DNA from: Polytrichum commune
Taxonomy: Eukaryota > Streptophyta > Polytrichopsida > Polytrichales > Polytrichaceae
Direction of reading: 5' to 3'
Assembly (NCBI GenBank): GCA_950295325.1
Contig: OX485809.1
Coordinates: forward strand, 29,326,001-29,390,000
DNA: 64,000 nt
Part shown: positions 37,718 through 61,144 of the stretch, one piece after another
Position numbering within the stretch: the first letter of the stretch is position 1
Layout: each line of letters starts with the position of its first letter
The notes under the pieces: generated by a model
Database searches by the model: none
What the model was told of the DNA's origin: nothing
What the model saw: the letters and a program-made list of their open reading frames with translations, nothing else
Program-made: the position numbers and the translations under genes

Positions 37718-38534
37718 GCCTTCACCTCCTAGTATGAAGTGAATGTGGATGGAACGATGAATGAGAGCGAGTGAAACCCCTGTGCTCGGTGAGGACGCTC
37801 GATGCTGCCAAGACTCGGAAGAGTTTGGTGTAAACAGATGATCCGGTGACAAGAAGAGCACTACAGATCCACATTAAAAATGGATCTAGACATGGGTGTC
37901 TGGACTTAGCTCCTCCTACACAGCATTGCGGAGTCCGAAATTTTGAAAGCTGCTGGCGGCCCGCACTAGGAGAAGCACATTTTTCATTTGGATCTGTAAC
38001 GCTCGGACCACAGCCGCATCATCTGTCGCCCAAACTCCAAGATCTGAAGAGCATCAGAAGCACCTCCTCACCGAGCAAGTTCTCCCCAAAACCCTAAACG
38101 CACTGCCTGCACCAACGCCGAAGCTAATCACACCACCAACTCACATGCATACTTTCCAACTCCACACCCACAACAGCCGAAGCCGCTACCGAAGGAGAAC
38201 ACCGAAGATCACCCAAGCAGAGCTGCCGAAGAAGCCGTAGAAGGGAACTGCTGACGTAACCAACGAAGGGGAATTGCCGAAGTAGACACTGAAGAGGAGC
38301 TATCGGCGAAGCCACCGAAGGGGTGTTGTCGAAATATACACCGAAGGAGAGCCGCCGAAGTAGCCACCGTAAGGGAATTGCCGAAGTAGCTGCCCAAGGA
38401 AAGTTACTGGAGCAACTCCAAACGGAGACATCGAATCACAGAAGACTGCCTCACTGAGACCAAAAGAGCACATATCTAGGTAGAGATACTAAAAGTGTGG
38501 AATTCCGGAGAAAACAGACCTAGATACCGTGGAT

Positions 38535-38930
38535 TGAGAGAAACCTGCCGAAACCTGCCGAAAGCAAATAGAAAGTCAGGTATATTTACGAACAGTGAGA
38601 AGATCTGCTAGAAGCTAGCGACTTTTGAGAAACAAAGCAGATCTACGAATAGTACAGAGGAGAACGATCTGCCGAAACTAGGTACTTGTGTGAAAGTGTG
38701 ATTAGAAGAGCGAGAGGATATCTGCCGAAACAATGGACCTTTGAGGAATTTAGTTAAGAGTGACAAACGGACCTGCCGAAAGCAAGTGCTTTTGAGGAAA
38801 CTAACTAGGATTGTGAGTAGGTCTGATAAAGGCAAGGACCGCTGAGAAACAAGTTAGATCTATGGAGAGAACATTGGTAAGAGATTTGCCAGAAAGCAAA
38901 ATACTTCCGAGAACCAATCGGACCTGCGAA
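38535..38930 (+). repeat. Degenerate 50-65 bp repeats in the retrotransposon leader
   Basis: About seven loose units start with versions of GATCTGCCGAAA followed by AGCAAGTRCTTTTGAGGAA-like sequence and purine-rich text. Just upstream (38190-38400) a shorter GCCGAAG/CACCGAAGG motif recurs many times. Such repeat-rich, GC-rich leaders are seen in 5' UTRs of some non-LTR elements, where they can act as promoters; that role is inference. Confidence 0.6.
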
Positions 38931-38972
38931 GAATGAAGGAGACCAGCACAGATCTCCGAAGATCACCCCCAA

Positions 38973-39225
38973 CAGCTTTAGAACAACTGCTGCAGCTTCC
39001 TAACTTCGCCAGTCTGTGAAGAGGCACTGCGGCTAACTCATGAATCAAGAGCTGGTTTACTCTCGTGGCCTGCTGCTTCTTCCACTGGGGGGCCTGCACA
39101 AATACCCGCGTTGCAAGCAAATGCTGGCGAAGTACGAATGTATGTATCGTTTCAGCTGATTGGTGGTATGAGCTGCACTTCGTCCAGCAGCTTTAGAACA
39201 ACTGCTGGAGCTTCCTAACTTCGCC
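38973..39225 (+). repeat. 38-bp direct repeat pair in the retrotransposon leader
   Basis: The string CAGCTTTAGAACAACTGCTG and the following AGCTTCCTAACTTCGCC occur at 38973-39010 and again at 39188-39225 with a single mismatch. The 177 bp between them are not repeated. Confidence 0.85.
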
Positions 39226-39650
39226 TACTGCCCTCTTCGAGAACATCACAACCAGGAGCAGGGACGGAGTCAGCGCGCCCGGGAGGCAGGCGGAGGAGTG
39301 GCGAAGGGTGGCGAAGAGACTAAGGAAAAGTGTCCACTTGGCCCACTGCGAGGAGCTGCCAAAGCTGTGGAGTTGATAAATTTCGAGAAAGAAGTTGTTG
39401 TCACAACCCCCGAAGCCACAAAGAACACAGACCGAGGTGCTGCTGGAGGCTGCGAGAGAAATCCGATCCGCCAGAAGGTGCTGCAGCTTGATTACCGACC
39501 AGCAGCTAGAGAAGAAGAAAAGTTGCGACAGAAGAACCCTAGTTGCGCCGCTCAACACACCCAATTCTCAACATGGCTTCACCCTCCACATATCGAGGCG
39601 GCTCAAGCAACAAGGACAACATGGAGGTAGACACACCCACATAAAACCTC

Positions 39651-41330
39651 ATGCGGCTCTTAGCGGACAAAACAAAGGAGAATCAAGTTGCTAAAGAACC
39701 AGGCATCAAGAGGTCCCGGGAGAAGGCAACACCGAACAAGTCTCTACACCAAACCCCACAACGACACCCACAAGCCACACAGGTAAATTCTATTTTCCCG
39801 GAACGAAGGTTCCGTCAAAATTTTTGGTATGGTTTCACTAACATGGAAAAATTGGCTATGGAAGAGGGGTTGGAAGAGCTCTTCGATGGTGAATCCATCG
39901 AAGATAGGGTACTTAGGGGTGTACCAAGGAAGGAAGCGGAAGAAATGGAGGGGGTAGCAATATCCTTCCCAAGGATACCCCAAATCTATTACCCAGGTAA
40001 GAGAGAGGATGGTGTCTTTGGACAACACCTCAACCTAACACAAATCCCATATGATATCCCAATCGATCCCAATACATGTCTCTCTTTGGATTTCCATGTT
40101 GCTATTGAATTTCAATTACCCAACACCCCTCTCCTCCATAACCATGTGAAAGAACTAGTAAGGAAAAGACTTGAATTGATGCAAATACCACTTGGCACTA
40201 ACCTTATCGAGCCCATATCTATCATGTGCATGAGTGTTAAGAGAGGTGGGGAGAAAGGAGTTTGGGCGGGAATTGCCAAACTCCACCTTCTCCACCCCGA
40301 AATTGATGGGGTGGCCTTGTTGAAAGGACTTAGACCATTCATTCTACAATTGGACCCCAAATCAACCCAATGTACTCTTGGAAAGGTATGTAAGACTTAC
40401 CACTCCATAGCTAGGAACAACAACCTTTCAATCAAAATCACTAGCGAAACTTTGATTGATGTCTCTTCACACATGCTCTTCAAAGATGTTTTAGAGAATA
40501 GCTTTAGGAGAGGTTATGAATTTGAGATTGTAGAGGTGCAAAAGGGCACTTCCAACAACCATGCTTACATTGTTGCACCAACCCCCTCACAAGCCAAGAA
40601 AATTCAAGATCTCCAAGTTGCAACACATCATGAAATTTTGGAAGGACAAGTGAAGAAAGGGTCTTCTCTCACCTTAGAGCAAAAACAAAGGAAAGAAGCT
40701 CTAACTCTCACCTTTTACAACCTTCCCATCTTGATGAGCATTGATGACACATCTCTTGAAATTTGTAAGATAATTAGAACCAAGAATGTTGTCTCCATTT
40801 GGTTCCATAAGCAACATGGAATTAGACACAATGGTAGTGCAAATGTTGAATGCCTCAACCCCTTTGTATACAAAAAATTTGTAGGAAAAGAGGAAAAAAT
40901 TGGTGTCTATCATGTGGAAATCACTCCACACCGTAGAAGTCTTGATGGTATTAACAAACCCTCCAAAGATTTGTTGGTCAAGTTTGGATTTGAAGATACT
41001 AACACTTGCTTGGTGAACACCATTGAAGCAATCCAAAACCAAAACCAAGGGGAGAAGAATGCCACCAAAAGCGAAGTTTTTACCATCATGAAGGAGGCCA
41101 TTGAAGAAGACAACAAGATACTCAAGCTTGAACTACACGAAGAGATGAAGGTCTTGAAGGATGACATAGTCAAAGAGGCCCACAACTATGTAGATGACAT
41201 TAACGAAAAATTGAAGAAGCAAATGTTGGACATCCAAAGCACATTAACCATGGCACTTACCGGGATGCAACAAATTACTGGGTTGGTAAACCCAAATCTT
41301 ATGATTAAAGACCTGCCAAATGTGGATTGA
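39651..41330 (+). CDS. ORF1 protein of the non-LTR element (RRM-like plus coiled coil)
   Basis: An uninterrupted frame of 559 codons starts at ATG 39651. The N-terminal 60 residues are basic. Around residues 349-427 there is an RRM-like block: LTLTFYNLP (RNP2-like), then GSANVECLN (RNP1-like) and YHVEITPH. Residues about 470-540 are charged and heptad-like (EEDNKILKLELHEEMKVLKD), suggesting a coiled coil. RRM plus coiled coil is a common build of LINE ORF1 RNA-binding chaperones, which coat the element RNA. No CCHC knuckle was seen. It is intact while ORF2 is broken in many places, and its base composition is balanced, unlike the A/C-rich DNA that follows. It could therefore be younger than, or unrelated to, the downstream reading frames. 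I cannot name a closer family. Confidence 0.6.
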   Translation: MRLLADKTKENQVAKEPGIKRSREKATPNKSLHQTPQRHPQATQVNSIFPERRFRQNFWYGFTNMEKLAMEEGLEELFDGESIEDRVLRGVPRKEAEEMEGVAISFPRIPQIYYPGKREDGVFGQHLNLTQIPYDIPIDPNTCLSLDFHVAIEFQLPNTPLLHNHVKELVRKRLELMQIPLGTNLIEPISIMCMSVKRGGEKGVWAGIAKLHLLHPEIDGVALLKGLRPFILQLDPKSTQCTLGKVCKTYHSIARNNNLSIKITSETLIDVSSHMLFKDVLENSFRRGYEFEIVEVQKGTSNNHAYIVAPTPSQAKKIQDLQVATHHEILEGQVKKGSSLTLEQKQRKEALTLTFYNLPILMSIDDTSLEICKIIRTKNVVSIWFHKQHGIRHNGSANVECLNPFVYKKFVGKEEKIGVYHVEITPHRRSLDGINKPSKDLLVKFGFEDTNTCLVNTIEAIQNQNQGEKNATKSEVFTIMKEAIEEDNKILKLELHEEMKVLKDDIVKEAHNYVDDINEKLKKQMLDIQSTLTMALTGMQQITGLVNPNLMIKDLPNVD

Positions 41331-41505
41331 CCACAAATCGCCGGGTAAAACAAAAGTATTTACTTCAATACTATCTTAGATACATACACATATGTAGACA
41401 TAGTATTAAACATAGTATTACACATAGTATTATATATACTATTACACCTAGAATAAATACTTGAATAAATACTAGATACCATCGTACTACTCATAGTATC
41501 CCACA

Positions 41506-42606
41506 ATGTCCAAAATACCATATGAAATACAAGTTATCTACTTTATACGAACACAAATTACATACTCTAGCAAAATTCTATACTCAAGCAAAATACCATA
41601 CTCAAGAAAATACAATACTCAAACAAAATACCATACTCAAGCAAAATACCATACTCAAGCAAAATGCCATACTCAAGCAAAATGCCATACTCAAGAAAAA
41701 TACTATACTCAAGCAAAATACTATACTCAAGCAAAATACCATACCCAAGCAAAATATCACACCCAAGCAAAATACCATACTCAAGAAAAATACCATACTC
41801 AAACAAAATACCATACTCAAACAAAATGCCATACTCAAGCAACACACCATATTCAAACAAAATACCATACTCAAGCAACATGCCATGCTCAAGAAAAATA
41901 CTATACTCAAGCAAAATACCATACTCAAGCAAAATACCATACCCAAACAAAACACTATACTCAAACAAAATACAAATACCATACAATTAATCCAAAATAC
42001 ACATACTTCCTACTCAAACAAATAAAAAGCATAACACCCGCCAAAACTAACCCTTTCACTATAACCAAAAACATAATCATAAAAAACCAAAGAATAAATA
42101 AGACTAAAACCCGACCACACCCAAACATCATACACACACCCACAACAAATTCCGTACTCTATAATAAAAGATACCATCATACTAGCCATGATACCATACT
42201 ACGGCCAAAATACAATATGAAATATAAATACAATCACTTTACTTTACACATGCACAAAGACAGAACTCAAACGAAACAATATACACACCCAAAATACAAA
42301 CCCCACACAAAATACATATTACACCCAAAATATAATCCTCACCAAACATATAAACTCCACCAAAAATACAAACCCCACCCAACATACGAAACACATCCAA
42401 AATACACATACTTCTTACCCAAACAAGTAAGAAACATAACACCCGCCACAACCAACCCTTCCACCACAACCAAATATATATTCACAAAATATCAAAAAAC
42501 AGATATCACTAAACCAAACACACCTTACCCAAACCTCAAAACCCACCCAAAACTATACTACAACCCAAAACAAAATACCACGAAAAATACTCAACTTCCA
42601 TGTTAA
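41506..42606 (+). CDS. A/C-rich open frame with YHTQAK repeats
   Basis: A 366-codon frame from ATG 41506 is dominated by the hexapeptide YHTQAK, encoded by the 18-bp minisatellite at about 41560-41985. It continues with Lys/Thr/Pro/His/Asn-rich text in which modules such as KYKPHP and TPATTNPSTTTK recur. Stops contain T and the strand is poor in G and T, so long frames arise easily here in all three phases. Coding status is doubtful. If real, it would be a low-complexity leader of ORF2, since the module near 42437-42485 recurs just before the 2A motif at 44594-44650. It has no recognisable domain. Confidence 0.3.
   Translation: MSKIPYEIQVIYFIRTQITYSSKILYSSKIPYSRKYNTQTKYHTQAKYHTQAKCHTQAKCHTQEKYYTQAKYYTQAKYHTQAKYHTQAKYHTQEKYHTQTKYHTQTKCHTQATHHIQTKYHTQATCHAQEKYYTQAKYHTQAKYHTQTKHYTQTKYKYHTINPKYTYFLLKQIKSITPAKTNPFTITKNIIIKNQRINKTKTRPHPNIIHTPTTNSVLYNKRYHHTSHDTILRPKYNMKYKYNHFTLHMHKDRTQTKQYTHPKYKPHTKYILHPKYNPHQTYKLHQKYKPHPTYETHPKYTYFLPKQVRNITPATTNPSTTTKYIFTKYQKTDITKPNTPYPNLKTHPKLYYNPKQNTTKNTQLPC
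41560..41985 (+). repeat. 18-bp minisatellite (ACCATACTCAAGCAAAAT)
   Basis: About two dozen units of 18 bp run head to tail with small substitutions (AAGCAA, AAACAA or AAGAAA variants; some CCC for CTC). Because 18 is a multiple of three, the array remains open in all three forward frames and also in two reverse frames, which explains the several overlapping open frames at this place. Confidence 0.92.
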
Positions 42607-42639
42607 AAATTAACAAAAACCATAATAAACTAGAACGAG

Positions 42640-42656
42640 CTCGGCCTACCGGCCTC
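42640..42656 (+). repeat. 17-bp GC motif CTCGGCCTACCGGCCTC, copy 1
   Basis: Identical 17-bp copies occur at 42640-42656, 43461-43477 and 44464-44480 within DNA that otherwise nearly lacks G. The core GGCC-TACC-GGCC can form a short hairpin. The preserved identity contrasts with the diverged surroundings. Confidence 0.9.
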
Positions 42657-43460
42657 GCCAATAAAGAAAACAAAAAACAAAAAAAGATAAAAGAAAATAT
42701 CAACAAAACAAAAACATACCAAAAAACCAAAACCACAGCTAATATAACAAGGCATAAACCACCCAACACCCCTTACCAACAAAGACCCATCAACACAATT
42801 AATATATCCCCTATGAGATTAGAAATCCTTTTGTATTCCTATAATACAAACATCTACGCTGCCCTACAACCACAATACACCTCTTATGCAATAAATGATA
42901 TACTATCAAAAAACAAAGAAATCCAACCACACCCTAGTACCATATACACACCTACAACAAAGTCCACACTCTTTAAAACTAGATATTATCATACTAAGCA
43001 TGATATCCTACAATACCCAAAATACCATATAAAACACAAGTACAACTACCTTACTATATACACACACAAAGACAATACTCAAACAATATACTACACGCAT
43101 CCAAAATACAAACCCCACCCAAACTCAATGTTACACCCAAAATATAGACCTCAACAAAAATACAAACTTCATTATACATATAAAACCTTACCGAAATTAA
43201 ACATAAACCCTACGGACAAACACAAGAAACAAACAAACATAACCAAAGCACACATCCAAAATACAAAACACACATATACAAAACCAAAACCATATCAAAC
43301 ACAAAAGACAATAAGAAAACATACAAACACACACCATATCACTACAAATACAACAACCCACAATACCACCTCACCCCTTTCAAAAAAAAATCCCCTAAAA
43401 CACCAAAACACCAAAACATAAAAACACAAAACATAATCCACGACAACCACCTAAGAAGGG

Positions 43461-43477
43461 CTCGGCCTACCGGCCTC
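43461..43477 (+). repeat. 17-bp GC motif, copy 2
   Basis: The second exact copy of the hairpin-capable CTCGGCCTACCGGCCTC motif, 821 bp after the first. Confidence 0.9.
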
Positions 43478-44463
43478 ATACCCATACTCATCCCACCCCA
43501 AAAAACCAATAAAAACAAATATCAAACACTCAAATCACACCAAAACATTAACCCAAATCTTTACCTCAAAAAACAACTCCATCCCCACACTAAGCACAAA
43601 ATTGCACCCAAACACAAAAAGGTTTTAGCCCACCGACCACGCCATAAAAGTTATAAATACCAATCTACAAACGAAGAGAAACCAAAAGTAATAACAATCT
43701 ACAACACACACCTCTTACCCAAACAACTTGAAAAAATCACATCCATCCTACACTACAATGCCCATCCAACCCACAAACACCCCCAACCTCACTCAAAATA
43801 CATATCACATCCAAAACATAGACTCCATCCAAGACACAACTCTCATCCAAAGAATAAACTTCATCTGAAATATAGAATCCGCTCAAAACTTAGACTTTAC
43901 CCTAAAAACAAAGTGCATCCACAACAACGCCCAAAGCATAATACCCACTCAAAACAAGAAACCCAACCTAACCTAGAACCTCACCCACTATCTAAAAAAC
44001 ATCCCAACCTACGCTCAAAAAACACACCATACCCTAGTTCCAAATCCAACCTCCACTCGAAATACAAATCATATCACAATTACAAAATGACCTTGTCCTA
44101 CCATCTCCACCACAAACCAAACCCTATCACAACCAAATGGAAACCACGCACAACTACAAAACACGTACTCCAAGACAACTCACATACACACCTCTTAACC
44201 AAATATAACACCCACCAAAACCACAAATCATTCCCCAGAAACCACCCCTACTCAAAACTAAATTTGCACACTAAACAAAAATTCAAACCGAAAAACAAAG
44301 CAACCTCAACCTACCAACCTCACCTCTCAACAAACACCAAAGCATACCTACAAAACAAATGCTCCAAAAATAGACCCTACCCTAACTTCGAACACCATCA
44401 CAAAATCAAAAACCTAATAAGCCCTCATACAAAATACCAACCCCACCCAAAAAACACAATGGC

Positions 44464-44480
44464 CTCGGCCTACCGGCCTC
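44464..44480 (+). repeat. 17-bp GC motif, copy 3
   Basis: The third exact copy of CTCGGCCTACCGGCCTC, 1003 bp after the second and about 240 bp before the 2A motif. Confidence 0.9.
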
Positions 44481-44701
44481 GCCACACAAATAATAACAAA
44501 TACCACTTCATAAATAATTGGAAACCTAACTCAATAACAAGCCAAAAATCTATAAATAATACAAAACCACACTTCTCACCCATACAAATAGAAAACACCA
44601 TACCCGCTATACCTAACCTCTCTACCACAACCAAATTCACAATCACAATATATCCAAAAATAATCCACTTCCACGGATACTACTTCATTACCAAACTAGA
44701 A

Positions 44702-44740
44702 TTACTAAAGTGCGGGGACATAGAATCCAACCCCGGACCA
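44702..44740 (+). other. 2A ribosome-skipping motif
   Basis: The codons read LLKCGDIESNPGP. The invariant part of 2A peptides is D-x-E-x-N-P-G-P, with skipping between Gly (44735-44737) and the final Pro (44738-44740). The preceding residues GYYFITKLELLKCG are hydrophobic with Leu and Lys, as in functional 2A sequences. A 2A at the head of ORF2 would release the A/C-rich leader peptide from the enzymatic polyprotein. 2A-like motifs are documented in several animal and trypanosome non-LTR elements. Confidence 0.85.
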
Positions 44741-45956
44741 ATGCCTAACATACTACATACACATCCTGCTACACACAAAAAGAGAGCCAACATATACTTC
44801 ATCCCAAACACTATAAAACTACAACCTGAATACCAACACATAGCAAATACATTTGCTCCCATACTAAAAAATACACACCCACTACACCATCAAGCAATAA
44901 ATATCCACCCACATCTACATCAATACATCCAAATACAAAGGCAATCACCACTAACCCATATGCTATATGCTATAGTCATCACCATCCACCCCTCAATAGA
45001 CACATGCAATAGTATACTAGCCCAACCCCAAAATTACCACTTTAACGACATATGGACCAACACATTAATTATTAGACTAGCTAACCTCACCAACCCCCCC
45101 AAAAGGCACATATTGACACCTCACCCCTACACAACATTTCTAGGAAACAATCAAGATATAATACTCCCAAAAAATTCAATACACACAGAAATATATGAAT
45201 TCATTCACAACCAAGATACTACACCCACACCCATCACCCTCCAAAACAAATTTACCTTCCTCCCAAATCAATTAATCACTGAAGCACTTCGATGCCTAGA
45301 AAGCATAAACGAATACTCGCACCCACCCCCACCCCCAACTACTCCCGCACCAACCATAAGAATCAACACAGACATTGTACACGAAACAAACATAATAACA
45401 TGGAATGCATCATCACTCAACACTTCACTGCCAAACCTACAAAGCCTAATAAACAATTCGCTAAACAACACAGCAATCATACATATCCAAGAAACCAAAC
45501 TAACTGCAAACAAATCTACAAAATACATACAAAATCTATTTCCGGAATTTAAACTCATATTAAACAACACACATGCACTCATAAGATGCAGACAACAAAG
45601 AATGCCCTATACACCCGGAAGAGGAGGCCTACTCACACTTATCCACAAAAAATATGCATTCCCTGAGAATATTACCAAAATTCCCACACCAGCAAATATC
45701 TCTCCATACCTACAAATCATTAAAATCAACAATCACCCACTAATACCTTGGCTAATCATACATATGTATATGCCTACACACTTAGAAGACATACACCTCA
45801 TCCCACACCTTAAGAACGAAATCACTAATCAAATCACTATAAACCCCAATCACATATACACATTATGTGGCGACTTTAACCGAGATATTGCACTTAGGGG
45901 CAGGCAAAATAACAACATTAACACCTCCCACAAGAAAAAGACTACCAATGGAAAAT

Positions 45957-48900
45957 TTTTACTGCATCACTCAACCTAGAATATATCCCAACTAACACTC
46001 GCATCTCCAGACAAGGAGGCTATAACTACACATCAACAAGTCTAATAGATGGATTCTACATCCACTCACCAGACAACAGCAAATTCATCTCCACCACAAA
46101 TACAAATATGAATCTAAACTCAGACCATTATCAAGTTGCACTACATATTCCCCACAACACCCTTATAGCCAGATCCCCACCCCCCACAAACACATCACCA
46201 AGTAGAATACTAAACCCAATACCACCAGAAAATATCGAAAAATTCAACATAACATTCTTCGAAGAAAACTCTGCACAAATAAAAATCCTTACCACATTAC
46301 TAGAAAACCATCAACACTTAAGCCCGGATCAATGGTGTGAACCCTTTGAGTGGTCCACCACTCTGCGGGATCACTTTTAGTTAGAATGTTAGCATTAAAA
46401 GTTAGAATTGATAGGGAATTTAGGGAAAATTAGTTCATTTAGCATTTAGACTAGAAGAATAAAGGTCAAAATGAAACTAAGTAGTGCTAGAAGATAGCAA
46501 AGTAGAAAAAATATGTTAGCTAGTAAAAACAACTAACTAAGCAAATATTAGTAGATGCTAGCTATTAAGCAAATGTTAGTAGATGCTAGCTAAGCAAGTG
46601 TTAGTTTATTAGTTAGTGTGAGGCACACAAGACTATTGGAGGTGTTTTGCGTAAGAAGACAAAACCGGCTTGAAGATTTTTGAAGAAAATTAGAAAGAGA
46701 GCAAAGGGGCTACTTGCCCACTTGTCCCCTTGCCAACTCGATGGCGGAAAAATTAGAAAGATTTCTAAGGTATCCGTCGGAGCCACCTTGGCGAGAGGGT
46801 GGCAACCTCAACTGGGAAAACCCCCAAGCCAAAATTTCGGGAAAGGGTTTGAAAAATGGATCCGGTGGAGGAGGGGTCCAACCCTTTTGTGAGAGGGTTT
46901 AAAAACCCCTCCTTCCACCTTGTAGCTCTCTCTTTTTCTCTAGTTTTTGGACGAAACCCTGCTTCAATGTAGTTAGGAAAAAATCCTTTAGCATGTATTC
47001 TCAATGGCTTAAGACAAGGGCTTGAGAAACTCCTCTACTCTCTCTCCTAGTTAGAATGTGTGTTTATTAACACACCAACAAAATTATTCCTTCTTTTGTA
47101 GAGGTAGGTTGGATGGTAGAGTTTTGAGTGGAGACATTGTAGACCTCATCTGCCAATGCCTTGAAAGCTTAGTTCAGAAGCTAGAACAAGATACTTATCA
47201 TTTTTCTCTTAGAGAGATTTCATATAGCTATCCATAGCCGTTTCCCATTTGTGATTTGGTTAAGATGACAATTAGTTATGGATTTCCAAAGATGGAGTAG
47301 AAAAAACTGGGTGGTCTTCTGGGTAGCGGCTGCTGGATCAGACCTGCAAGCCCAATAGGAATTTTAATTCCAAGAAGTTATATTTTTCCCAAGTAGAACT
47401 TTTGTGTAGCTTTCCAAAAAGGCTTAGAACATTTTATTTGAGCATGATTTGAATTAGATATGAATTGTGTAAGATGGGATACATACTTTGAGAACTTTTG
47501 GTTGACTGCTGCATTACAGAGGACCTGCTGGGTTCACTTCGGCTTACCTTTCTAATCACATATTTTTATCAAATACATATTTTTAATATCTCTTCAGGGT
47601 CATATAGAACGTTTGATTTGAATAAGATTTGAATTAGATATGAATTGTTGAAGGCGAGATACATATTTTAAGCCTTCTTGATTGACTGCTGTGTTACAAG
47701 GAGTCTGCTGAATTTCTATTAGCTTAACCTGCTGATGTCATAATTTTCCTAGTTAGAACATATTCATAGTTTTCCAATGGTATAAGGAAAGCCTAGACCC
47801 AAGTAGTAAGGAATGTGCTATGAATTTTTGAAGTTAGAAGTTAGATAGGTGGGTTAGAAGGGTCGGTTGAATCGACCTCACACTTCCAACCCTCATAACT
47901 TTTGCATTTCTTATCCGATTCAAGTGAATTTTAGATCATTGGAAAGATAATTAGGTGCACTAAGTATAAATATTATTCTTAGGATTAAATTACAGTGTAG
48001 AATAAATACTTTATATTTTAATTGTTAACTAAGGTACGGTTACTACCAAACTAGTTACAAAGAAGGAGGCAAGGTCGACGCTAGGGAAGTGGAGTAAGGA
48101 AGGAGGTAGCGGCTTGGCCTACATCGAGCCCAAATCAACCGAAGAGAATTGAGGTAAATTAACTAACTTTAAGCCTTCCATTTAGGATTGGAGGGAGCGC
48201 GGCTAAGGTACGCATCTCTAAACCCACTCACCTATCTCGTAAGGTCAAGTGGCTTGACCACTTGACCGCCAAGGGAATACCCAACTCCATTGTTTTCGGG
48301 GCCCTTGGTATGTTTTGTGGTAGTAGCTTCATTTATTAGCAAGTTTCGTGTGTGGTAAGTCGGATTAATCACCGACACGACCACTCTGAATGTTGTTGGT
48401 GGAAATGTGGGGTTAATGACCTGCGAATCCACTGTTATGTTGTTGGCCCCATAGATTGGGAGTAATGGCCCCAATTTATGAAGATTGTGCAACAGGTTGA
48501 ACCTACAGGTTGCCCGTCACCCTAGTCCCATTAAGTTATAATTTCGTAGTCTATCCAGTGTAAACACACCTGACAATTAAAACATACGAAATAAATCGTA
48601 AACCCTTGTTGGCAAGAGACCCGAGGTAAGGGGTGATGCCTAATATGTGAATGTAATGAGGTAGGTGCCTTGGTTTCAAGGCTGGTGCGTTTGCGCGTAG
48701 AATAGGTTGTAGGTTAAGATTATAACTAGATAGGAAATTAGTTAGTGGAGTTTAGAGCCACACTAGTAAAAAACTAAGGTCCAACCTCCGGAGGTACTAC
48801 GACGTATATTTAATTTCTCTTAAAAATCTAACTACTCACGTTATACAGCTATCATTCGGGTTCGGCTTGGGCGCCTGCAAATGCAGGCCACCTTCACCGA

Positions 48901-49730
48901 AGGGCTTGTGTGATACTTTTAGGCTCCCTCGAAAGGGGGTGGCCCAAAAGTACCACAAATGGGTAGAAGCCTGTACAACATTTTACCATATTGTAAACAA
49001 AATTTCAGAAACAATTGAAAAAACATGTAAAGCAGACCCGTTACCAAACCTTACGAGCAGAACATCACAACAAGGTGGTTTTCTGCCACGAAAACTGGCC
49101 AGAGAATGAAAAAGACACCTCAACACATACCACCTTATGAGAAAAACCATATACATTGCACAACACGATCCACTCTGGCAAGCACACCCCATCCTAAAGA
49201 ATATACGAAACCACCAACACACAAACATCCCACATCCACCTATCACAACGGCACCTCCTACTGAGTGGATTAATATCATAGCAACCATAGCAAAAAAAGC
49301 AAATAAAGAAGCCAGAAAAATCACCATAAAATACACCAAAGACTGCATTCTAAAAGCCGTATCAAAATACAGACAAATGTACGAAAGAAGCCCCCAAAAA
49401 ATAAATCGGAAAGTCTTCAAGAACACTGAAACCTCACCCCTGGACTCCAATAACAACCCTAGACAAAACAATATACTAACCAACCCAGAAGATATCGCAT
49501 CAGAAATTTACATACAACAATCCATCAGTAACCGTCCTACAGTTCCCATATGCAAATACCAAAATACACATCCACTACACTGCACATGTGGAGTCCGACA
49601 ATATCCATGGCATGACCTAGACGGATACATAATTGACAAGCGAGGAGAACCCCACACCCCTCTACACATGTATTTTGACCAAGAAACATACGACTTTTGT
49701 CTTAAAAACCTAAGTAATAACAAAGCCCCA
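45957..49730 (+). pseudogene. ORF2 part 2: end of APE domain and linker, split by solo LTR
   Basis: After the frameshift the APE domain continues through SLIDGFYIHSP and NSDHYQV (NSDH at 46117-46128, the catalytic SDH motif). The frame runs into the LTR at 46336 and resumes in phase after 48962, once one AATGG copy is discounted, with KWVEACTTFYHIVNKI. It is a linker rich in Lys, Asn and Thr up to LSNNKAP at 49709-49729, the conserved NKAPGPD block that opens reverse transcriptase and is cut here by the second LTR. A frame slip also lies around 49105-49137. Confidence 0.7.
46336..48957. mobile_element. Solo LTR, 2.6 kb, TSD AATGG
   Basis: The element starts TGTGAACCCTTTGAGTGG and ends AGTACCACA, the TG...CA termini of LTRs. 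The 5-bp target duplication AATGG is at 46331-46335 and 48958-48962. No second LTR, primer binding site, gag or pol reading frame was recognised inside, so it is best read as a solo LTR left by recombination. At 2622 bp it is long for an LTR, and a non-autonomous element cannot be fully excluded. A TTTAAAAACC stretch near 46899 may be the TATA region. Confidence 0.85.
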
Positions 49731-51403
49731 TGTGAGCCCAAATTGATGCCCACATTGGTTGTTAACACTTGTAAAACATTACAAGTGGTATTTTGGTGAT
49801 TTATAATTATTCATAAAAATATAAAAAGACTGAAGCTTGAAGAAAACTTAGTTTGAAGTATTAGGCTTTGTGGAGTGGATTTAAGTAGGAGAAGGACAAA
49901 CCTTGGTAAACTGTGGTAGGTAGAAAACCAATGTTAGTTAAATGTTTGAATTAGGATCCTTGTTGAACATTTGAAGGAGGAAGGCTTAGGAGATAGGATT
50001 AAAGCCTACAAAGTAGGAGGAGATCTCGAGGGCTTATCGTGAGCCTTAAGGGTGCTCACCCCCTTAAACTCACTATATAATCCCTCATTCTTCCCTCACT
50101 CATCCTCTCTTTCCTTCGTGCTCCAAGGCACCCCACGTGTTATAAGTGTGGGTGTGTTGGAAGCAAGATTGGAGCACATGTGTGTGCTTAGTTTTTAGTT
50201 GGAGAGCCAAGGCTAGTCGGCCTTGAAGAGGGTTTGACCTCTTGTTAGAATTAGTTTTGGTATGAATAATTTTAAGATATTTTATGGCTTCAAGTTGTAT
50301 TATTTAAGTTCATATTTTTTGGGTATTTCTTAAGTAGTCTAGGTTGTAAGGGGCATAACTTCCGAGCAGAAGAAGATACTTCGTTGAAATTTAGAGGGTT
50401 AGTAAACAACTTGTTTATATGAACATGGTCAAAATTTGAGGATGTTTGGAGTACTGGAGCAGCAGTTATGACATTCTGAACTTCGCCTATATTTTTGAGC
50501 TGAAATGGGCATAACTCCTGGACAGAGGTTTGGAAACGTATGAAACTTTGAGGGATGCTTTGTTCTTAGGTTTCCTAGTTGTGGTACAAATTTCAAGTCA
50601 TTCCAAGTAGATGAGAAGGATATATATTATTCTGAAGTGTTTTCAAGAGTTGCTGACTAAAAATGCCATAACGTTTTGGCAGAAAATGAAAATAGTTTGA
50701 AATTTCAGGGGGTCATAAACAATTAGTTTTTGTGATTGCTCCCAAAATTTGAAGTTCTTTGGAGCCTGTGAGAGGAAGTTATGACATTCTGAAATCTGGG
50801 TAGACTGACACACTAAAATGGTCATAACTGTCGGACAGAAAATGAGATAGGCTCACAAATTGGTGAGATGTTTTTTGCTTTGTCTCCCTAGTTACAGATA
50901 AAATTTCAGGACATTTCGAGAAGTAATGGGAAAGTTACATTATTAGCTAGTAAAGTCGAGGGGAACAAAGGAAGTTTGCTTGGTTCCATTAGGGATAACC
51001 ATTAGTTCATTAAACCAATATAGTGGTTGAAGCGTGAGGTGAAAACTACAATAAGTGACAAGTATTTATAAATACTTAAACTTGTGTAATTCATGGAATC
51101 AATAAGCGAGAACTCATGTAGTAGTGTGGAGTCGACAACAATGACTCGCTTCACAAGAGGGATATCTTTGAAGGCATTCGTGGTCAAAGCGGCCGGGTGG
51201 ACTTTAGAGAAGTACAAGGATGTACCATTACTCGAGGTTAAGGAGTGTAAGAAGACATAGTATAGACTTGACTAAGTTGTGTATATTCCAACGATAGATT
51301 GGAATCATACATTGTGTTACAAAGAGAGAAATCTCTACATGTCATTATAAACTTCTCCATTCGGGCTAGGACGAAATTGAAGGGTGGAGGCTTTTTGGTG
51401 ACA
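49731..51403. mobile_element. Solo LTR, 1.67 kb, TSD CCCCA
   Basis: The element starts TGTGAGCCCAAATTGATG and ends TTTTTGGTGACA, flanked by CCCCA at 49726-49730 and 51404-51408. The string ACTCACTATATAATCCCTC near 50070 looks like a promoter TATA box with a start site just downstream. No internal region or second LTR is present. It interrupts the NKAP-GPD block of the reverse transcriptase exactly. Its first bases resemble those of the other solo LTR (TGTGARCCC), but the interiors differ. Confidence 0.9.
50354..50880 (+). repeat. 156-bp tandem modules inside the solo LTR
   Basis: CATAAC-anchored units recur at 50354, 50510, 50667 and 50823, a spacing of 156-157 bp. Each has ATAACTYC-GGACAGA-like text followed by GAAACTTTGAGGG or AAATTTCAGGGG-like text. 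The units are quite diverged. Confidence 0.7.
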
Positions 51404-51408
51404 CCCCA

Positions 51409-53387
51409 GGACCAGACAAAATACCTAATTCAATTCTAAAAAATATGCCTCCACGCTTCCACAAATTACTCTTCCTATTCTTTAAACACTGTTATAAACA
51501 AAAACAAATTCCCGCATCATAGAAAACCAGTCTAACAATATTACTATATTAAAAAGGAAACCCATCACAACTAACAAACCACAGACCTATTGCGCTAGCT
51601 AACACCATATATAAATTCTACACGAAAACACTAACCTCTATTCTATCAACATATGGCGAAAAATACCAAATATTACATGACAGTCAAGAAGGCTTCAGAG
51701 CAGAGAGAAACACTTCTAGATAAATCCAACTACTCATCGGAGCGCTTGAAGACGCAAGACTCACGAACCAAGATATATATATATATATATCCTCTACATT
51801 GACTTCAAAAACGCCTTTGGCTCCATTGATCACGCCTGACTTTTAGCCATAATGAAATATCTGGGATATCCCACTGATTCCATAAACCTCATAGGAAACA
51901 TATACTCACAATCCTCAACAATATTCACTGGCGAACACTTCGGAAAAACCTCACCAATCCCTATTCAAAGATGTACAATACAAGGTGATACCCTTAGCCC
52001 ATATCTATTTATCATATTCCTAGAACCCCTCCTTATATGGCTACAACAAGAAAATAACGGATACACTTTTGGCACATCTAGAGTAAAAATCTCATCAGCA
52101 GCATATGCAGATGATATTGCAGCAATCGCCAATAAACTAGAGACACTGCAAACACAACTCAACAAACTAGACAAATTCTGCGAATGGGCAAGAATAGACC
52201 TTGGAATACCCAAATGTGTAATAACTGGCTGCCCAAACAAATCCAAACTTCACCCCACAACTTTTAAAGCCTTAATCCAATCCACCAATATAAACTACAG
52301 GAATCAACCTATACCAGTCCTAAACCAACATGAACCATACGCGTATCTAGGAATAAACCTTGCACCATCATCCAAATGGAAAATACAAATAAATACTACT
52401 ACAGCTAAAGTCATCAAACAATGTCAAGCCCTTGCAACATGCCCAGCTACTATGAAACAAAAAATAAACATGGCAGATACAGTCATACGCGTTGGAATAG
52501 CATACAATTTCTACGCAGTACCTTACTCCATACCAGCTATAAAAAAACTAGATAAAAAAATCATAGCACTTCACAAAACGATTTGCGGGATACCCAAATG
52601 CACATCTAACATCGCTACACAGCTCCCACACAACCTATTTGGAATCGAAGCTTTCTCACTACAAAATGCCTATCTAAGATGCATTGGAGAACAACTACAA
52701 AATGTCCTCAATGACAAAGGGAGAATTGAGAAAATATATACTGGTCTATTACAATTCATACTCGCCAAATATGGGGGCTCTCAAGAAATCACTCGCATTA
52801 AATACCACCACTGTGTTAGATCACCCATCACTAGAACATTGTTCTTGCTCAAACATAAAGCCGGAGTCCATCTAAAAACCACAATAAATAACTTTCTACT
52901 AACCCCATCCTCACTTGAAACTGCATGGATGCAAGAAACACAAATGCTACATGGCCTAAACCCCAACACCTCACTTAAACTACTACACAAACTACTTATA
53001 CATAATATAACCACACTAGACCAAATTACCATGCCTAATGGTACCATTCTAATGAACAAGGATGAATTCAAAATCTACCACTCCACTCCTTCTAAACTTA
53101 TCCAAAGCGCACTTAATATAGCTAATCAACTATTCTGCCATCCCCCCTGTAATCAATGCTCCCTACCTTGCCAACAACATCACCCAACAAGATTCCTAAA
53201 AAACAAATATATAATAAGAAATCACAACATCCTACCTCACGCACCGACCGCCCCCGTACACCCCCTAACCTCTCCATCCTCCATCTATCTCCTCCCCCCA
53301 ACAACATGCTTAAAGACCCCCGACAATTCCCCATACACAAAATACTCGATCACAAACAAAAACAATCTAATGACCACAATGGAATAA
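51409..53387 (+). pseudogene. ORF2 part 3: reverse transcriptase
   Basis: After the second LTR the frame resumes with GPDKIPNSILKNMPPRF and NHRPIALANTIYKF. Motif A is YIDFKNAFGSIDH (about 51795-51833), motif B is QGDTLSPYLFIIFLEPLL and motif C is AYADDIAAIA (about 52105). The domain carries its catalytic Asp residues but is broken by in-frame stops at 51520 (TAG), 51550 (TAA), 51721 (TAA) and 51837 (TGA), and by an (AT)9 run at 51773-51790 that shifts the frame. From 51852 it is open for 511 codons, ending with a cysteine cluster (CHPPCNQCSLPC). Three of the four stops are one transition away from Trp or Gln codons. Confidence 0.9.
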
Positions 53388-55183
53388 AAAGAACAGTCAC
53401 GTCATACCTATGTCAATGGACCACAACAAATAACAACACATATAATAAATGGCGAACCCAACGGGACCTATACCCCTATTGTGAAGCCAACATATGCAAT
53501 CACAACACAAACCTGCTTATCCAATATTACACAGAAAGACAACACAAGCATTTTTCAAACATCATTAACGCCTACTTCACCACAGAACAACACCGAGACA
53601 CAAGATACGTCACACCAACCACAATAATTCCGCTAGCACATATCTCTATTAGTGAATGCAACCCAGAAAACGACATTGAAACAAACTCTGATACTATCCA
53701 AACACAATTCGATGTCGCTCACATATACGAAGACAATGGAAGGCATCTCATCACCATCCCGAAAGCTAGACTAACATGGCTATGGAAACAATACCAATTG
53801 GCAAAAAATATCACACACGGTCTAGAACCATCTACCCAATCATTCGAAACTGAAATTGTTTGGCTATACCAAAGATACAAATACCGTATCCCAAAAAACG
53901 ACCCACTCAAAAGAGCCCAATATGCAATACCAACTCAAATATTGAATCTACTAATTACAACATTCAATATTAACCACTCATATTTTTCATCCCCAGTTAC
54001 ATGTCCTACACAATTCACCCAATTCTACTCACCATTCTCACGAAACATAATATTTGGATCCTTAGGTAAAGTGTTTGACTATAAATGGCAAGGAATCGGA
54101 TACGCACATCCGCACAACTCAACAAACCTACAACAAGCCATACACTGGGCACGCATGGCGGCCCAAAATGACCCTTACACAATCACTATAATTATATCCT
54201 CAGACACTGATTGGTACCAAAACTCGAACCCACACACATGCCCATTCCCAGACACACATGTCATTGCCCATTTTGCCGCTGACATAATCACATATGAAGA
54301 ACCCACAATACCCCCCGAGCTCAATATCACAAGGAAAGAACCAGCTACCATGCAAATACTCTGTATCCATCACCAAAATAATAACATAGGTACCTACGAA
54401 CAAATGAAGTTAATAAATGACACAGCAAATAACCTCCAAATACTACAAAGCCACACTCAAATTGCACCACCCACCCCTCCGAACATCACCGTTAACCCTA
54501 GTAAAAAATGGGTTAAATCAAACTACCCAAACACACCCCTACACAATAATATCCCCACCCCACAACTTCCAAACTACCAAACTAACTTACCGCTAAAATT
54601 CCACCCCCAATTTAGCTACTACACGGACGGATCCTTTATAAAACCCAAAGAAATTGCCCTTGGGGTATGGAGAAGAGAAAGAGCTGGATATGGTATCTAT
54701 AGCCCCAAAGGCTTAAATATCACCAAAAGACTCCATGGGCATCAAAACATACTACGTGCAGAAATGATGGCTATACACAAAACACTAAGAATCATCAATA
54801 CACAATTCCCTAATGAACCCGCATTTATATTCACAGACAATCTAAACGTATTATACCTACTCAACACACAAATTAAACACCCCACTCTCCATAATAGTCA
54901 CCCAGACCAAACCACACTCAAGTCCATGGTAAAAATCCTTCAAAACCGTACACAGCCAATCACACTATACAAAGTCAGAGCACACGTCAACATTGACGGT
55001 AATGAAAAAGCGGATAAACTAGCAAAAGACGGGTTAGAATTAGAACACAGAATTGCCATCCACCCATACGAACATGCCCACGCCACCCCGTACTATTATC
55101 AAAAGGACGTCTGGGCCTCGATGGCAGACGTCCCAGACAAAGGCCCATTAAGATTCTTAGAAAAACAAATTAAAAAAATATGA
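53340..55183 (+). pseudogene. ORF2 part 4: unnamed domain and RNase H
   Basis: The frame shifts near 53340-53390 and stays open to 55183. From about 53960 to 54310 a distinct region reads FYSPFSRNIIFGSLGKVF, WARMAAQNDPYTITIIISSD, DTDWYQNSNP and PFPDTHVIAHFAADIITYEE. I cannot name it; parts recall a Rossmann-type methyltransferase fold, but that is only an impression. RNase H follows with all catalytic acids visible: FSYYTDGSF (about 54615), RAEMMAI, FIFTDNLNVL and VRAHVNIDGNEKADKLA (about 54975-55025). An A-run near 55172-55178 causes the final frameshift. Confidence 0.8.
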
Positions 55184-56078
55184 TAGGGAAACTAATATAG
55201 CAATCATGGCCACACAAACCCCCAACACGTGTAAATGGACAGAAAATATAGACATTGACAAAGAACTGTCCAACGAATTCTGGACAAATCCCTTAATCAC
55301 AGACAAACAAAAATCCTGCCTTATTAAATTCCGCACAGGAACATACATGGATAATGCTAGAAAACAAATGTTCTTTGGTCACCAAAGGTACCCCTCTATC
55401 ACGTGCCCTATATGCAATTCAAATGATCCAGACACTTGGCTACATGTACTACTGAAATGTAACCAACAACATATACACTCACTACGAATTAAAAGACATA
55501 ACAAAGCAGTCGGAGAAATTAGGAAGCTCCTAATCTCGTCCGAAAAATCCCGATGTTTTACTCTCATGAATGCCGGTACCTTCAATAATAATCCCCAAGA
55601 AAATACTGTCCCCAATTGGCTACTCCCCTGCACATGTAACACACAAAGATGTCATTGCAACGCAAGATTTCAACCCGATATACTCTGCGTTAAAGGATTA
55701 CCATATCAAAATGACCCTCCCATTGACATTGACCCTAACCTCACCATACAATTTATTGAATTCACATATTGTAACGATAGATTCTCCCCAGAAACAATAG
55801 AAGCAAAAAACAACAAATACAAACCATTGATTGATAGTATCGCTTCCAGAGGATGGAAAATCGAACCACTTATTGTCATCACAGCTGGGGCCTGAGCTAC
55901 GGCCCACATCCCATCTATGAAAATACTAGAAGAAAATCTCAAAATACCCATGGTTACCATCAAAAATACCTTTAAAAATATTAATACCATTGCAATACAA
56001 TATGCCATGTCCATCCTCCTCCATAAGAGGAGAATTGAAAACCACCAACCGCTCCCCCAAAACTTAGACCCTCCATAA
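55184..56078 (+). pseudogene. ORF2 part 5: CCHC finger and REL-like endonuclease
   Basis: The last frame contains CPICNSNDPDTWLHVLLKC, a C-x2-C-x9-H-x4-C finger as found at the C-terminus of many LINEs. A second Cys cluster (PCTCNTQRCHCNAR) follows. Then comes RFQPDILCVKG and, about 25 residues later, IEFTYCNDRF and a KYKPLI segment. The PD ... E-x-T ... K order fits the PD-(D/E)XK restriction-enzyme-like endonuclease of R2-type and Dualen elements. A TGA at 55893-55895 breaks the frame once, one change from Trp or Arg; it otherwise runs to TAA 56076-56078. Confidence 0.75.
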
Positions 56079-56180
56079 AACCCAAAAACTTATATAATAG
56101 TTAATATCTATTTACAGCTCAGAATGAGGGATTGATGCCGGTTGGTTGGTACAAATTTCCTGCCTTTTACTCACTTGCAG

Positions 56181-56293
56181 CACCAAGTCACGTCTTACAT
56201 TTTAAACAATCATACGGACTCGACTGGAATCGAACCCGGAACGTCTTAACTCAAACATCCTCCCACAACCAACCGAGGAATCATGACTTGGTG
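56181..56293 (-). mobile_element. tRNA-like sequence, probable SINE head
   Basis: On the minus strand there is a perfect pol III B box GGTTCGATTCC (plus 56226-56236) and, 26 bp upstream of it, an A-box-like GGTTGGTTGTGG (plus 56263-56274) inside a CCTC/GAGG D-stem. Together they look like a tRNA-derived SINE head with a poor acceptor stem. A 12-bp inverted repeat (CACCAAGTCACG and CATGACTTGGTG) brackets it exactly at the interval ends. It lies in the 3' region of the non-LTR element in antisense orientation. Confidence 0.55.
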
Positions 56294-56612
56294 TTCACTC
56301 TCATTACAAAAACACTAATTATACTTAAAAGGCATGCACCCCCGTGGGCCATGATCGGCCCATGTTATTTGTTTCTCGGTTACTATAGTGTCCATCCTCG
56401 AAAGAGGAGAGTAGTCTTGTCCCAGCTTCCCCATGTCCTGTGGGCATCGGGTTGTTGGCATTACGAACGGACACTCTATTCACGCCGGCCCCTTGAAAGG
56501 GACCGGAGTTTCTATCTATCTGAATGTGGATGGTCTCTGCCTTTTCAACCAATGAGAGATCTTATATTGCAGTGGTCATGGGCTTTTAATCTTGTGTGTG
56601 AAGTGGCCCTAA

Positions 56613-58964: not shown

Positions 58965-60163
58965 TACACATATACACATATACACATATACATATATAAT
59001 TATAGTTAACATCCACATTAAATAAAGTGGACCAAAAATAACAAGAACAAGTAACGTCCAAGTGTGAATGCAAAGTAGTTAGAAAATTTGCTCTTGAAAC
59101 GAAGAAGTTGATGCATAGCCTCTGTCCTACAGACAGAGCTAACAAACGCACATTGCTTAGTAACGTTATAAAGAGCATTTGTGTCAGTTGAACTTTTAGG
59201 ACACAGGACGCAACAAAAACCGTGTGTTAAATCAACCTAGGCCCCAGGTTTAAAAAGGGTAGTCCGAAGGTTTGTGGACCAATCACCATCCTCCACGTTA
59301 CATCACTCATCTCCTCTCTTCTCTTCGCTTTTCGTCACACAAAACCTGACCACTCTATCTCACCTGAATGTGATTGAAGCTTCAGCTGGAGCACCGTCTC
59401 GACCGGACTCAATCCCTAGTAAGTAACGAAGCCCCTGCGCCTAGCATCTGCATCTCTTCTATTTGGTATGTGTCTTATGTAATCTTCCAATTCTCCCAGA
59501 TGGCCTTCAGTCAGTCAGTCAGTCACTCTCTATTTCATCTTGCAAATTCGCATGGGTGTGTCTACGCAACTTCAGTAGGTACACAATTCAAGCCACATTG
59601 GTGACTTGCTACTAAGTTAATTGCAATGCCACTTCTTCTGATTCTATGAACCCTGGGAATTGCACCATATCAGGATGCATTCGGAGTCAATGTAGTATTT
59701 GAATTGAACAATGCTTCTCTGCCTGCAACTCGTCTCTGAATGTGAGTAGTGATGTTATCATATCATTTACCATCCTTCCTAGTCATTAATCTTCTCCGCA
59801 TGTTGGGAAGCATTTTCGGTTCGGAATGGGATTAGTATTGGGCTCCCTTTTTTTGATTACAGCTACTACGGCTTTTAATACAACCGTGGGGAAAAACCAT
59901 AGCTGCAACGTTTGAAGTGAGAAGTGTGCACCCTTACCCAAGTCTACCCGGTCGGAGGCAGTGTAGTTGACAATTGCTGATTTTAGGGAGGAAGTAGCAG
60001 GGAAAAGATATGTGGGCTCAGAGTGTGTTATTTACTGAAGAGCAGTTTCTGTTTCTGTGTGTGGGGTGAAGGTTCTGCACAAAAAATATTTGCGGGGCAT
60101 GCAACTGGACTTGTAACCTAAATATTGACAAGAAGAGGAACCTTGTCAGTGGCGATTCTCGGG
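57851..60163. other. Intergenic and 5' region of the fibrillin-like gene
   Basis: AT-rich to about 59200, then more GC-rich promoter-like DNA. A pyrimidine-rich CTCATCTCCTCTCTTCTCTTC stretch near 59308 is typical of plant 5' leaders. No supportable coding exon was found before 60164, although an intron in the 5' UTR is possible. Confidence 0.5.
58926..59000. repeat. TA/CA-rich microsatellite
   Basis: The run is built of TATACA and TATACACA units (about 75 bp). Nearly the same sequence TATAATTATAGTTAAC or ATTATAGTT lies on either side, which suggests local slippage and duplication. Confidence 0.8.
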
Positions 60164-61144
60164 ATGACAGCAATTTTGCCTGGTGCTGAAGTTATGATGA
60201 ATCCATACACCATCACCAGCTCACAAAAGCCATACAAATTACCAGCCCTGGTCACTTCTGGACATCCAGCACCTTCTTCTTCTTCTTCTTCTACCCTCTT
60301 TTCCTCCTCATCTCATGCCCATGCAACCTCTTGGACAAATAGGGTTATGCCGCTGAGGTCAGGGTGGCAGAAGAAAAGATGTTGGCAGAAACAGCAGAAT
60401 GGTCGAGTTTTCGCTATACAAAATTCTGCAAATGTGGGAGACACATCAGCTGCAGCAGAGGAAAGGGTTAGGCTGAAGAAGGAATTGCTTCAATCTCTGG
60501 AGGCCACAGATGGCAGTCTGTCTCATGAATCCCTTCACATCATCGAGTCACTCGGGAAGTTGAATCCCAACCCTGAAGCGAGCAAAGTGCCCGAGCTCGC
60601 CTTGGGCTACTTTGAAGCTGTGAAGGCAACTCTGGAGGGAAAGCCCCAGCCAAACGCAGGCGTTTTCGTGTCTACGTTTACGCTTGGCCGTGCAGCATTC
60701 AATGCATTCCAGCCAAAGGAGCAGGAAGTGATTCACGAGCACACCTACAATTACATCGCGACACAGGGCATGGACGAAGAATATTTGTTGGCATCTGCCA
60801 TGTCGATCAAAAACCCAGATCCGTCATTACAGCCATTGAAGGGTTACTTGGTGAACCGGGGGAAGTTTAGTTTCTCGGGTGTGAACGAAATGGAAGTCGC
60901 GTTCCTTGAGTCAGTATTGCGGCCAGCGCATCCCGAGAATGAGGATGAGCTGCACACATGGAAGCAATTGTTTGCGGAGAAAAACCCGAGCATGGATGAG
61001 CGCGGGTTCATGACTGTGAACCTTCCTGGCGCGAAAGGAAAGATTACTCACATTTATCTCGATGACGAGCTTCGAATAGTGAAGGGCACCGGGGGTAACA
61101 CGTTTGTCACCAGGCGGCTGCCGGGGCCAGTCATCACTCTTTAG
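60164..61144 (+). CDS. Plastid PAP/fibrillin-like protein, intronless
   Basis: An open frame of 326 codons from ATG 60164 to TAG 61142-61144; ATGs at 60194 and 60197 are equally possible starts. The first 80 or so residues are rich in Ser, Thr and basic residues and poor in acidic ones, with a long Ser run, like a chloroplast transit peptide. The mature part has RLKKELLQSLEATDGSL, then LNPNPEASKVPELALGYFEA, and ends KITHIYLDDELRIVKGTGGN followed by FVTRR. This resembles the N-terminal LL-aI-gtdrG and C-terminal YLD-LRI-RG-GG-lFV blocks of plastid-lipid-associated proteins (PAP/fibrillin), which bind lipids at plastoglobules and thylakoids. The canonical GkW-LLYTT block is not obvious, so it is a divergent member or a related plastid protein. 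The 3' end of the gene is repeated downstream. Confidence 0.6.
   Translation: MTAILPGAEVMMNPYTITSSQKPYKLPALVTSGHPAPSSSSSSTLFSSSSHAHATSWTNRVMPLRSGWQKKRCWQKQQNGRVFAIQNSANVGDTSAAAEERVRLKKELLQSLEATDGSLSHESLHIIESLGKLNPNPEASKVPELALGYFEAVKATLEGKPQPNAGVFVSTFTLGRAAFNAFQPKEQEVIHEHTYNYIATQGMDEEYLLASAMSIKNPDPSLQPLKGYLVNRGKFSFSGVNEMEVAFLESVLRPAHPENEDELHTWKQLFAEKNPSMDERGFMTVNLPGAKGKITHIYLDDELRIVKGTGGNTFVTRRLPGPVITL

Follow-up and report, generated by a model that had tools for sequence, protein, structure and literature searches.

A decayed retrotransposon with domains of two endonucleases

We analysed a stretch of 64,000 nucleotides of the Polytrichum commune genome (GCA_950295325.1, contig OX485809.1, positions 29,326,001 to 29,390,000 of the forward strand; hereafter the window). 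From its letters alone, an initial annotation had recognised a Dualen-type non-long terminal repeat (non-LTR) retrotransposon of about 14.5 kb without two LTRs, combining an apurinic/apyrimidinic endonuclease-like (APE) domain, a reverse transcriptase (RT), an RNase H and a restriction-like endonuclease (REL). Beyond that description, we observed a PCIF1-type domain, a 2A site and an exchangeable 5' module. The limits of the element (Table 1) were confirmed independently by the 13-bp direct repeat TGAATGTGGATGG, which abuts both ends, and by a 3' tail, a CTAT-type tetranucleotide run, that other copies in the genome have as well. Alignment to intact copies delimited two inserts, both starting with TG, ending with CA and flanked by 5-bp duplications, which look like solo LTRs; subtracting them leaves 14473 bp (18768 - 2622 - 1673), in agreement with the length first proposed.

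All motifs quoted in the initial annotation are present in open reading frames (ORFs) of the element. WNASSL, QETKL and GDFN lie in ORF 43184-45979, SLIDG and NSDH in ORF 45922-46380, DFKNAF near 51.8 kb, QGDTLSP and YADD in ORF 51840-53387, and the series C-x2-C...H-x4-C...RHN...PD...E-x-T...K-Y within 55161-55895. Pfam scores of the window copy were E=4e-13 for RVT_1 and E=3e-12 for RNase_H. The window holds a dead pseudo-copy, whose lesions include frameshifts around 45.95, 53.38 and 55.17 kb, a stop codon immediately upstream of 51840 and another, premature, at about 55895.

Table 1. Parts of the retrotransposon copy in the window (positions counted from the first letter of the window).
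Feature	Position	Strand	Remarks
Left 13-bp target-site duplication TGAATGTGGATGG	37740..37752	.	Direct repeat abutting both ends
Whole Dualen-type non-LTR retrotransposon, decayed	37753..56520	+	Target-site duplication on both sides, common 3' end
ORF1, 561 aa	39645..41330	+	No Pfam domain over cut-off
18-bp tandem repeat array in A/C-rich, G-poor 5' module	41517..42056	+
ORF2 piece 1: low-complexity leader, 2A motif LLKCGDIESNPGP, linker, most of APE	43184..45979	+
ORF2 piece 2: APE end (SLIDGFY, NSDHY)	45922..46335	+	Open frame continues into insert 1 to 46380
Insert 1, solo-LTR-like	46336..48957	.	TG...CA, duplication AATGG
ORF2 piece 3: APE-RT linker and RT start, between the inserts	48958..49730	+
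Insert 2, solo-LTR-like	49731..51403	.	TG...CA, duplication CCCCA
RT palm and thumb (DFKNAF, QGDTLSP, YADD)	51404..53387	+
Chromodomain-like stretch, weak, approximate limits	53400..53650	+	Chromo below cut-off, beta-rich in model
PCIF1/CAPAM-type methyltransferase-fold domain (model residues 178-428)	53684..54436	+	Motif IV AHPHN
RNase H domain (model residues about 484-633)	54602..55051	+
CCHC zinc finger and restriction-like endonuclease (PD...E...K-Y)	55161..55895	+	Stop-truncated
Rest of ORF2 end, 3' untranslated region (UTR) with terminal hairpin, tetranucleotide tail	55896..56520	+	RNA fold z -2.8
Right target-site duplication	56521..56533	.	Direct repeat

The element is one of a probably recently active family with no fixed target site

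The recovery of other copies, which the initial annotation had named as a check, was achieved with a 515-aa RT piece as query against the 408-Mb genome, which comprises seven large contigs of 42-78 Mb. Among 2254 first-look candidates, 84 matches were scored, and the 83 places other than the window were 82-92% identical to the query, so the coding pattern of the element is not a product of chance. The matched stretch was free of stops in 28 of the 84, and eight lay within open frames of 2000 aa or more. Copies are present on all seven large contigs, and the window itself lies 29 Mb into one of them; this position contradicts an origin of the family from an assembly contaminant, which we regard as having a negligible chance of being right, even though the small contigs C10, C11 and C13 (L036, L037 and L039) look bacterial with a G+C content of 0.62-0.69, compared with 0.31-0.46 in the other readable small contigs.

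Ten copies were fetched for comparison. Three of these encode an ORF1 of 747 aa and an ORF2 of 2625 aa, and two others have ORF2s of 2924 and 2663 aa. One of the 747/2625-aa copies, c2, shares 99.3% identity with the second over 10.3 kb and 99.6% with the third over 11.9 kb. Target-site duplications (TSDs) abutting the 3' end were sought in nine of the ten copies with a minimum length of 10 or 11 bp; seven carried one of 11-14 bp, all different, and two did not. Two copies truncated at the 5' end have the duplication on that side too, no more than 3 bp from where similarity begins. CTAT/TATC repeats were found at the 3' end of all nine copies inspected as well as in the window, and the five longest copies with TSD-type ends span about 12.0 to 14.6 kb. 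The duplications, the common 3' ends and the 5' truncation point to target-primed reverse transcription without a fixed target, and the family is young, multicopy and recently active, with intact copies. Of note, two matches at C1:70160962-70162509 (-) and C1:70186292-70187839 (+) have identical scores and opposite orientation about 24 kb apart, and represent either an inverted duplication or an assembly fold-back. Scans of viral-contig and genome-contig collections with query A1 found no relative.

Both nucleases are kept under selection

ORF2 of an intact copy matched RVT_1 (2e-29), RNase_H (5e-13) and PCIF1_WW (5e-8, over the cut-off) in Pfam, and Exo_endo_phos at 9e-4, under the cut-off. 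When the APE stretch of the intact copy c2 was searched alone, PF14529 (6.5e-6) and PF03372 (3.3e-5) both fell just under their curated cut-offs, while the family member P0012 exceeded that of PF14529 (6e-8) and the distant relative P0121 matched PF03372 at 2e-13; sequences in the PDB gave weak exonuclease III matches alone (E 0.19-0.23). An APE-type endonuclease thus sits N-terminal to the RT. An RNase H domain is present, and C-terminal to the RT lies a restriction-like endonuclease, for which the predicted model supports the PD-(D/E)XK fold that the initial annotation had expected. The P, D and E residues of the REL are nearly always kept, and its lysine position is non-standard.

The ratio of non-synonymous to synonymous substitution rates (dN/dS) was derived from two pairs among five intact ORF2s. 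Between two intact ORF2 types it was 0.06 for the RT, 0.07 for the APE, 0.05 for the RNase H and 0.10 for the zinc finger-REL region, and 0.51 for the leader before the 2A site. The low values in both nucleases, together with the retention of the REL residues, speak against the proposal that only the APE nicks DNA and that the REL persists as a DNA- or RNA-binding part. In favour of this single-endonuclease proposal, the 11-14-bp duplications at unrelated sites resemble insertions of APE-type long interspersed nuclear elements (LINEs), R2-like target specificity is absent and the REL lysine is displaced; on balance we consider it rather doubtful. With its intact copies and both nucleases under selection, the multicopy family is a tractable system for asking why a LINE keeps two nucleases.

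Across the wider protein set, strict regular expressions (38 of 99 proteins without RNase H, 20 long C-termini without the REL pattern) were replaced by four profile hidden Markov models built from members of the same set. None of 235 reversed proteins matched any of the four, and the PCIF1 profile matched 91 long proteins, of which 66 were not seeds (weakest 1e-6).

Intact copies carry a 2A-type site, LLKCGDIE(S/P)NPGP, ahead of the APE, which reads GDIKPNPGP in one subfamily, and nine further relatives among the 235 proteins scanned have 2A-like sites before the enzyme module. A 2A-like site, IELNPGP, was also seen within residues 1-25 of P0223, a LINE protein of the arachnid Cordylochernes scorpioides that is different in other respects. 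Evidence for the chromodomain is weak (Pfam Chromo E 0.005-0.15, below the cut-off; 0.05 in one intact copy), and the stretch is beta-rich in the predicted model. Between the RT and the PCIF1-type domain, relatives carry a PHD finger (PF00628 at 2e-8 in P0166; marked by Pfam in P0174, P0210 and others), for which Pfam gave no match in the window family; beside the chromodomain-like stretch, this suggests putative histone-reader modules in relatives. Pfam detected no protease in two ORF1s and one ORF2 from intact copies. In this the window family may differ from the Dualen elements first described, which reportedly encode a cysteine protease; such a protease is not part of the definition of the group in PMC4640811 and PMC3636483. 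Of the 120 listed relatives, 10 are marked as having a cysteine protease of one of three different types (Ulp1, Josephin or OTU), including P0132, P0140, P0147, P0210 and P0226, and the Josephin domain of P0226 is located before the APE.

A PCIF1-type domain with an altered catalytic motif is common to the group

Between RT and RNase H lies a PCIF1-type domain, the methyltransferase core of whose model superposes on PCIF1 residues 417-668 and which shares the FxSPL...FG[SA]xG signature of PCIF1; the methyltransferase fold is therefore present. In a PCIF1_WW/PF12237 search of the genome, all 150 scored matches (of 697 first-look candidates) exceeded the cut-off, and none of 14 control genomes was matched. 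PF12237 matches in such genomes may consequently be retroelement copies rather than host PCIF1. The dN/dS of the domain was 0.12 in the ORF2 comparison described above, close to the enzyme domains and below the leader, which indicates constraint.

Motif IV could be aligned in 113 retroelement rows (101 outside the window family and 12 within it), with seven rows unaligned. Not one of the 113 has the catalytic NPP[FY]; the window reads AHPHN, and the 12 family rows have HP (nine), YP (two) or MP (one), so the NPPF motif of PCIF1 is not kept in the aligned rows of the window family or its relatives. Outside the family NPEY is the commonest form (23 of 101 rows), and [HS]PPF is found in four. Two observations weigh against the domain as a shared trait: Pfam annotation marks PF12237 in just 53 of the 120 listed relatives, and a Pfam scan of three unmarked relatives found it below the cut-off in one (2.7e-4) and absent in two (E 0.1). 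Taken together, the PCIF1-type domain is kept across the group under purifying selection and with an altered catalytic motif.

These data bear on whether some or all elements of the group have a domain that still works as a methyltransferase and modifies the first transcribed or another adenosine of the element RNA, which would give the LINE an epitranscriptomic writer of its own. The superposition, the low dN/dS, the four [HS]PPF rows and the prevalence of NPEY, which keeps the asparagine and an aromatic residue, argue for such activity, and NPEY lineages may still be catalytic. Set against this are the lack of NPP[FY] in every aligned row, the HP, YP or MP of the whole window family, the great diversity of the motif and a divergence that takes the domain beyond recognition by Pfam in two of the three unmarked relatives, and we therefore hold an active enzyme to be unlikely. 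In the window family the domain most likely functions in binding the element's capped or 5'-proximal RNA and not as a standard m6Am writer.

As a tentative proposal, in which we have less than even confidence, a PCIF1 fold may have been captured in a common ancestor of Dualen elements and kept between RT and RNase H, where it would act on the capped 5' end of the element's own RNA as a writer (NPEY) or a reader (HPHN), so that template choice or completion of reverse transcription would depend on the cap-proximal adenosine. If this were true, the retroelement would carry its own epitranscriptomic module. The module ties LINE biology to mRNA-cap methylation. No report of a PCIF1-type module in retroelements or of a Dualen methyltransferase was found in the open-licence literature, which is weak evidence given that the original Dualen paper was not covered; the module seems to be a group-wide trait that went unnoticed and is the notable result of this analysis.

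The family nests inside a Dualen-like group

The RT tree comprised 48 rows (IQ-TREE, LG+C20 PMSF) after 18 near-duplicates had been dropped and P0038 left out as too short. The rows from outside the group were three of R2, the I-type row P0014 and P0223, with neither L1 nor the original Chlamydomonas Dualen included. A 98/98 branch separates the 43 group rows, not all of which were checked for both nucleases, from R2, the I-type row and P0223, the latter two on very long branches. The window family (100/100) is nested inside the group beside P0112 and P0206 (99/98), and a quick tree of 66 rows agrees. Hence, the suggestion of a new sister clade was not supported, since the family falls within the diversity of its relatives, which include the Chlorophyta Pleodorina starrii and Cymbomonas tetramitiformis. 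Separation of the RT from ordinary clades held for R2 and for one I-type row; L1 was compared by E-value alone (1e-16; two R2 chains gave 2e-31 and 3e-31). The element is far longer than most LINEs, but not exceptional in its own group, whose proteins reach 4249 aa.

A rival reading, in which the element is an ordinary LINE of the plant L1 or I group, its C-terminus holds a zinc knuckle and the REL motif is fortuitous, is largely contradicted and most improbable, although the I group has the same APE-RT-RNase H order and C-terminal CCHC motifs are frequent in LINEs. Pfam matches, predicted folds, the RT tree and dN/dS support the Dualen-type assignment, with APE, REL and RNase H in one ORF.

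The 5' module seems to be exchanged between lineages

Similarity of c2 to the window, c4, c1_51 and c6_16.69 begins at a single c2 position, 6817, some 130 codons upstream of the 2A site, and no collinear blastn match was obtained upstream of it at the thresholds used. Among six copies compared, the 5' part of the window is shared by c6_16.69 alone. The window's ORF1 shares 37% and 29% identity with ORF1s from two further 5' types, whereas the DNA of the enzyme modules is 82-93% identical between copies. One enzyme module is joined to at least three 5' modules (5' UTR, ORF1 and leader) that are dissimilar to each other, represented by c2, c4 and window/c6_16.69. This combination of divergent ORF1s and similar enzyme modules suggests that lineages have exchanged the 5' module at a joint close to the 2A site. 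ORF1 showed no Pfam domain over the cut-off, and its RRM-like appearance was not confirmed.

Across 42000-46000 and 52000-56000 of the window the coding strand is A/C-rich and G-poor (GC skew -0.34 to -0.72, AT skew +0.28 to +0.49). Rfam gave no match at gathering scores within 36-58 kb. Outside the element, a 340-aa ORF at 60122-61141 (+) matches PAP_fibrillin (PF04755, 6e-5, over the cut-off), a host gene of the plastid lipid-associated type that points to a photosynthetic eukaryote.

A proposed model for element replication

We consider it highly probable that the window holds a Dualen/RandI-type non-LTR retrotransposon of a recently active family that works as follows. The element RNA would encode ORF1p and a large ORF2 polyprotein, from which the 2A site, judging by its motif, would detach the variable N-terminal leader. 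The remaining enzyme module, composed of APE, RT, chromodomain-like stretch, PCIF1-type domain, RNase H and CCHC-REL, would recognise the 3' UTR by its structure and tetranucleotide tail. The module nicks DNA at non-specific sites, where reverse transcription is primed; the products of this reaction are seen in the 11-14-bp TSDs, the common 3' ends and the 5' truncation. The PCIF1-type domain would bind capped or 5'-proximal element RNA, and RNase H would remove the template. The cut in the second strand is most likely the work of the second nuclease, whichever of APE and REL that may be.

Comparison with known systems

The window family shares with R2 (R2Bm, R2Tg) the CCHC, RHN and PD-(D/E)XK fold, and R2 provides the nearest RT among solved structures. 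R2 elements are specific to rDNA and are not known to have APE, RNase H or PCIF1 domains, whereas the window family has an APE and its TSDs differ at every site; the REL of R2 was not matched by the REL profile built from the group. The I-type P0014 has the same order of APE, RT and RNase H, and its RNase H matches the group profile (4e-18), but it is separate in the RT tree, as a single row on a long branch, and it gives no match to the REL or the PCIF1 profile. Neither group therefore accommodates the family.

Dualen elements are described as carrying both APE and RLE (REL) endonucleases (PMC4640811, PMC3636483) and have been taken as evidence on the origin of APE-type from REL-type LINEs (PMC4640811). 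The tables of PMC3747384 and PMC4438587 list RandI under green algae alone, and Dualen has been noted in Chlamydomonas relatives (PMC8226300) and cryptophytes (PMC12747079); a search of the open-licence literature returned no title on Dualen in land-plant genomes. The window family resembles Dualen/RandI in its two endonucleases, RT, RNase H and non-poly(A) 3' repeats (PMC4640811, PMC3636483, PMC3747384), non-A repeats being listed for eight of eight RandI families in Table 3 of PMC3747384. It differs in its PCIF1-type module, 2A site and chromodomain-like stretch, which go unmentioned in the passages on the group in these accounts.

With PCIF1/CAPAM itself the domain has the fold and signature in common, but here it is embedded in a retrotransposon polyprotein and NPPF is not kept. 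Retrotransposons of dinoflagellates and charophytes that captured a cytosine DNA methyltransferase (PMC5890265) likewise acquired a methyltransferase-fold gene; theirs belongs to another methyltransferase family, whereas the domain described here is common to the whole retrieved group.

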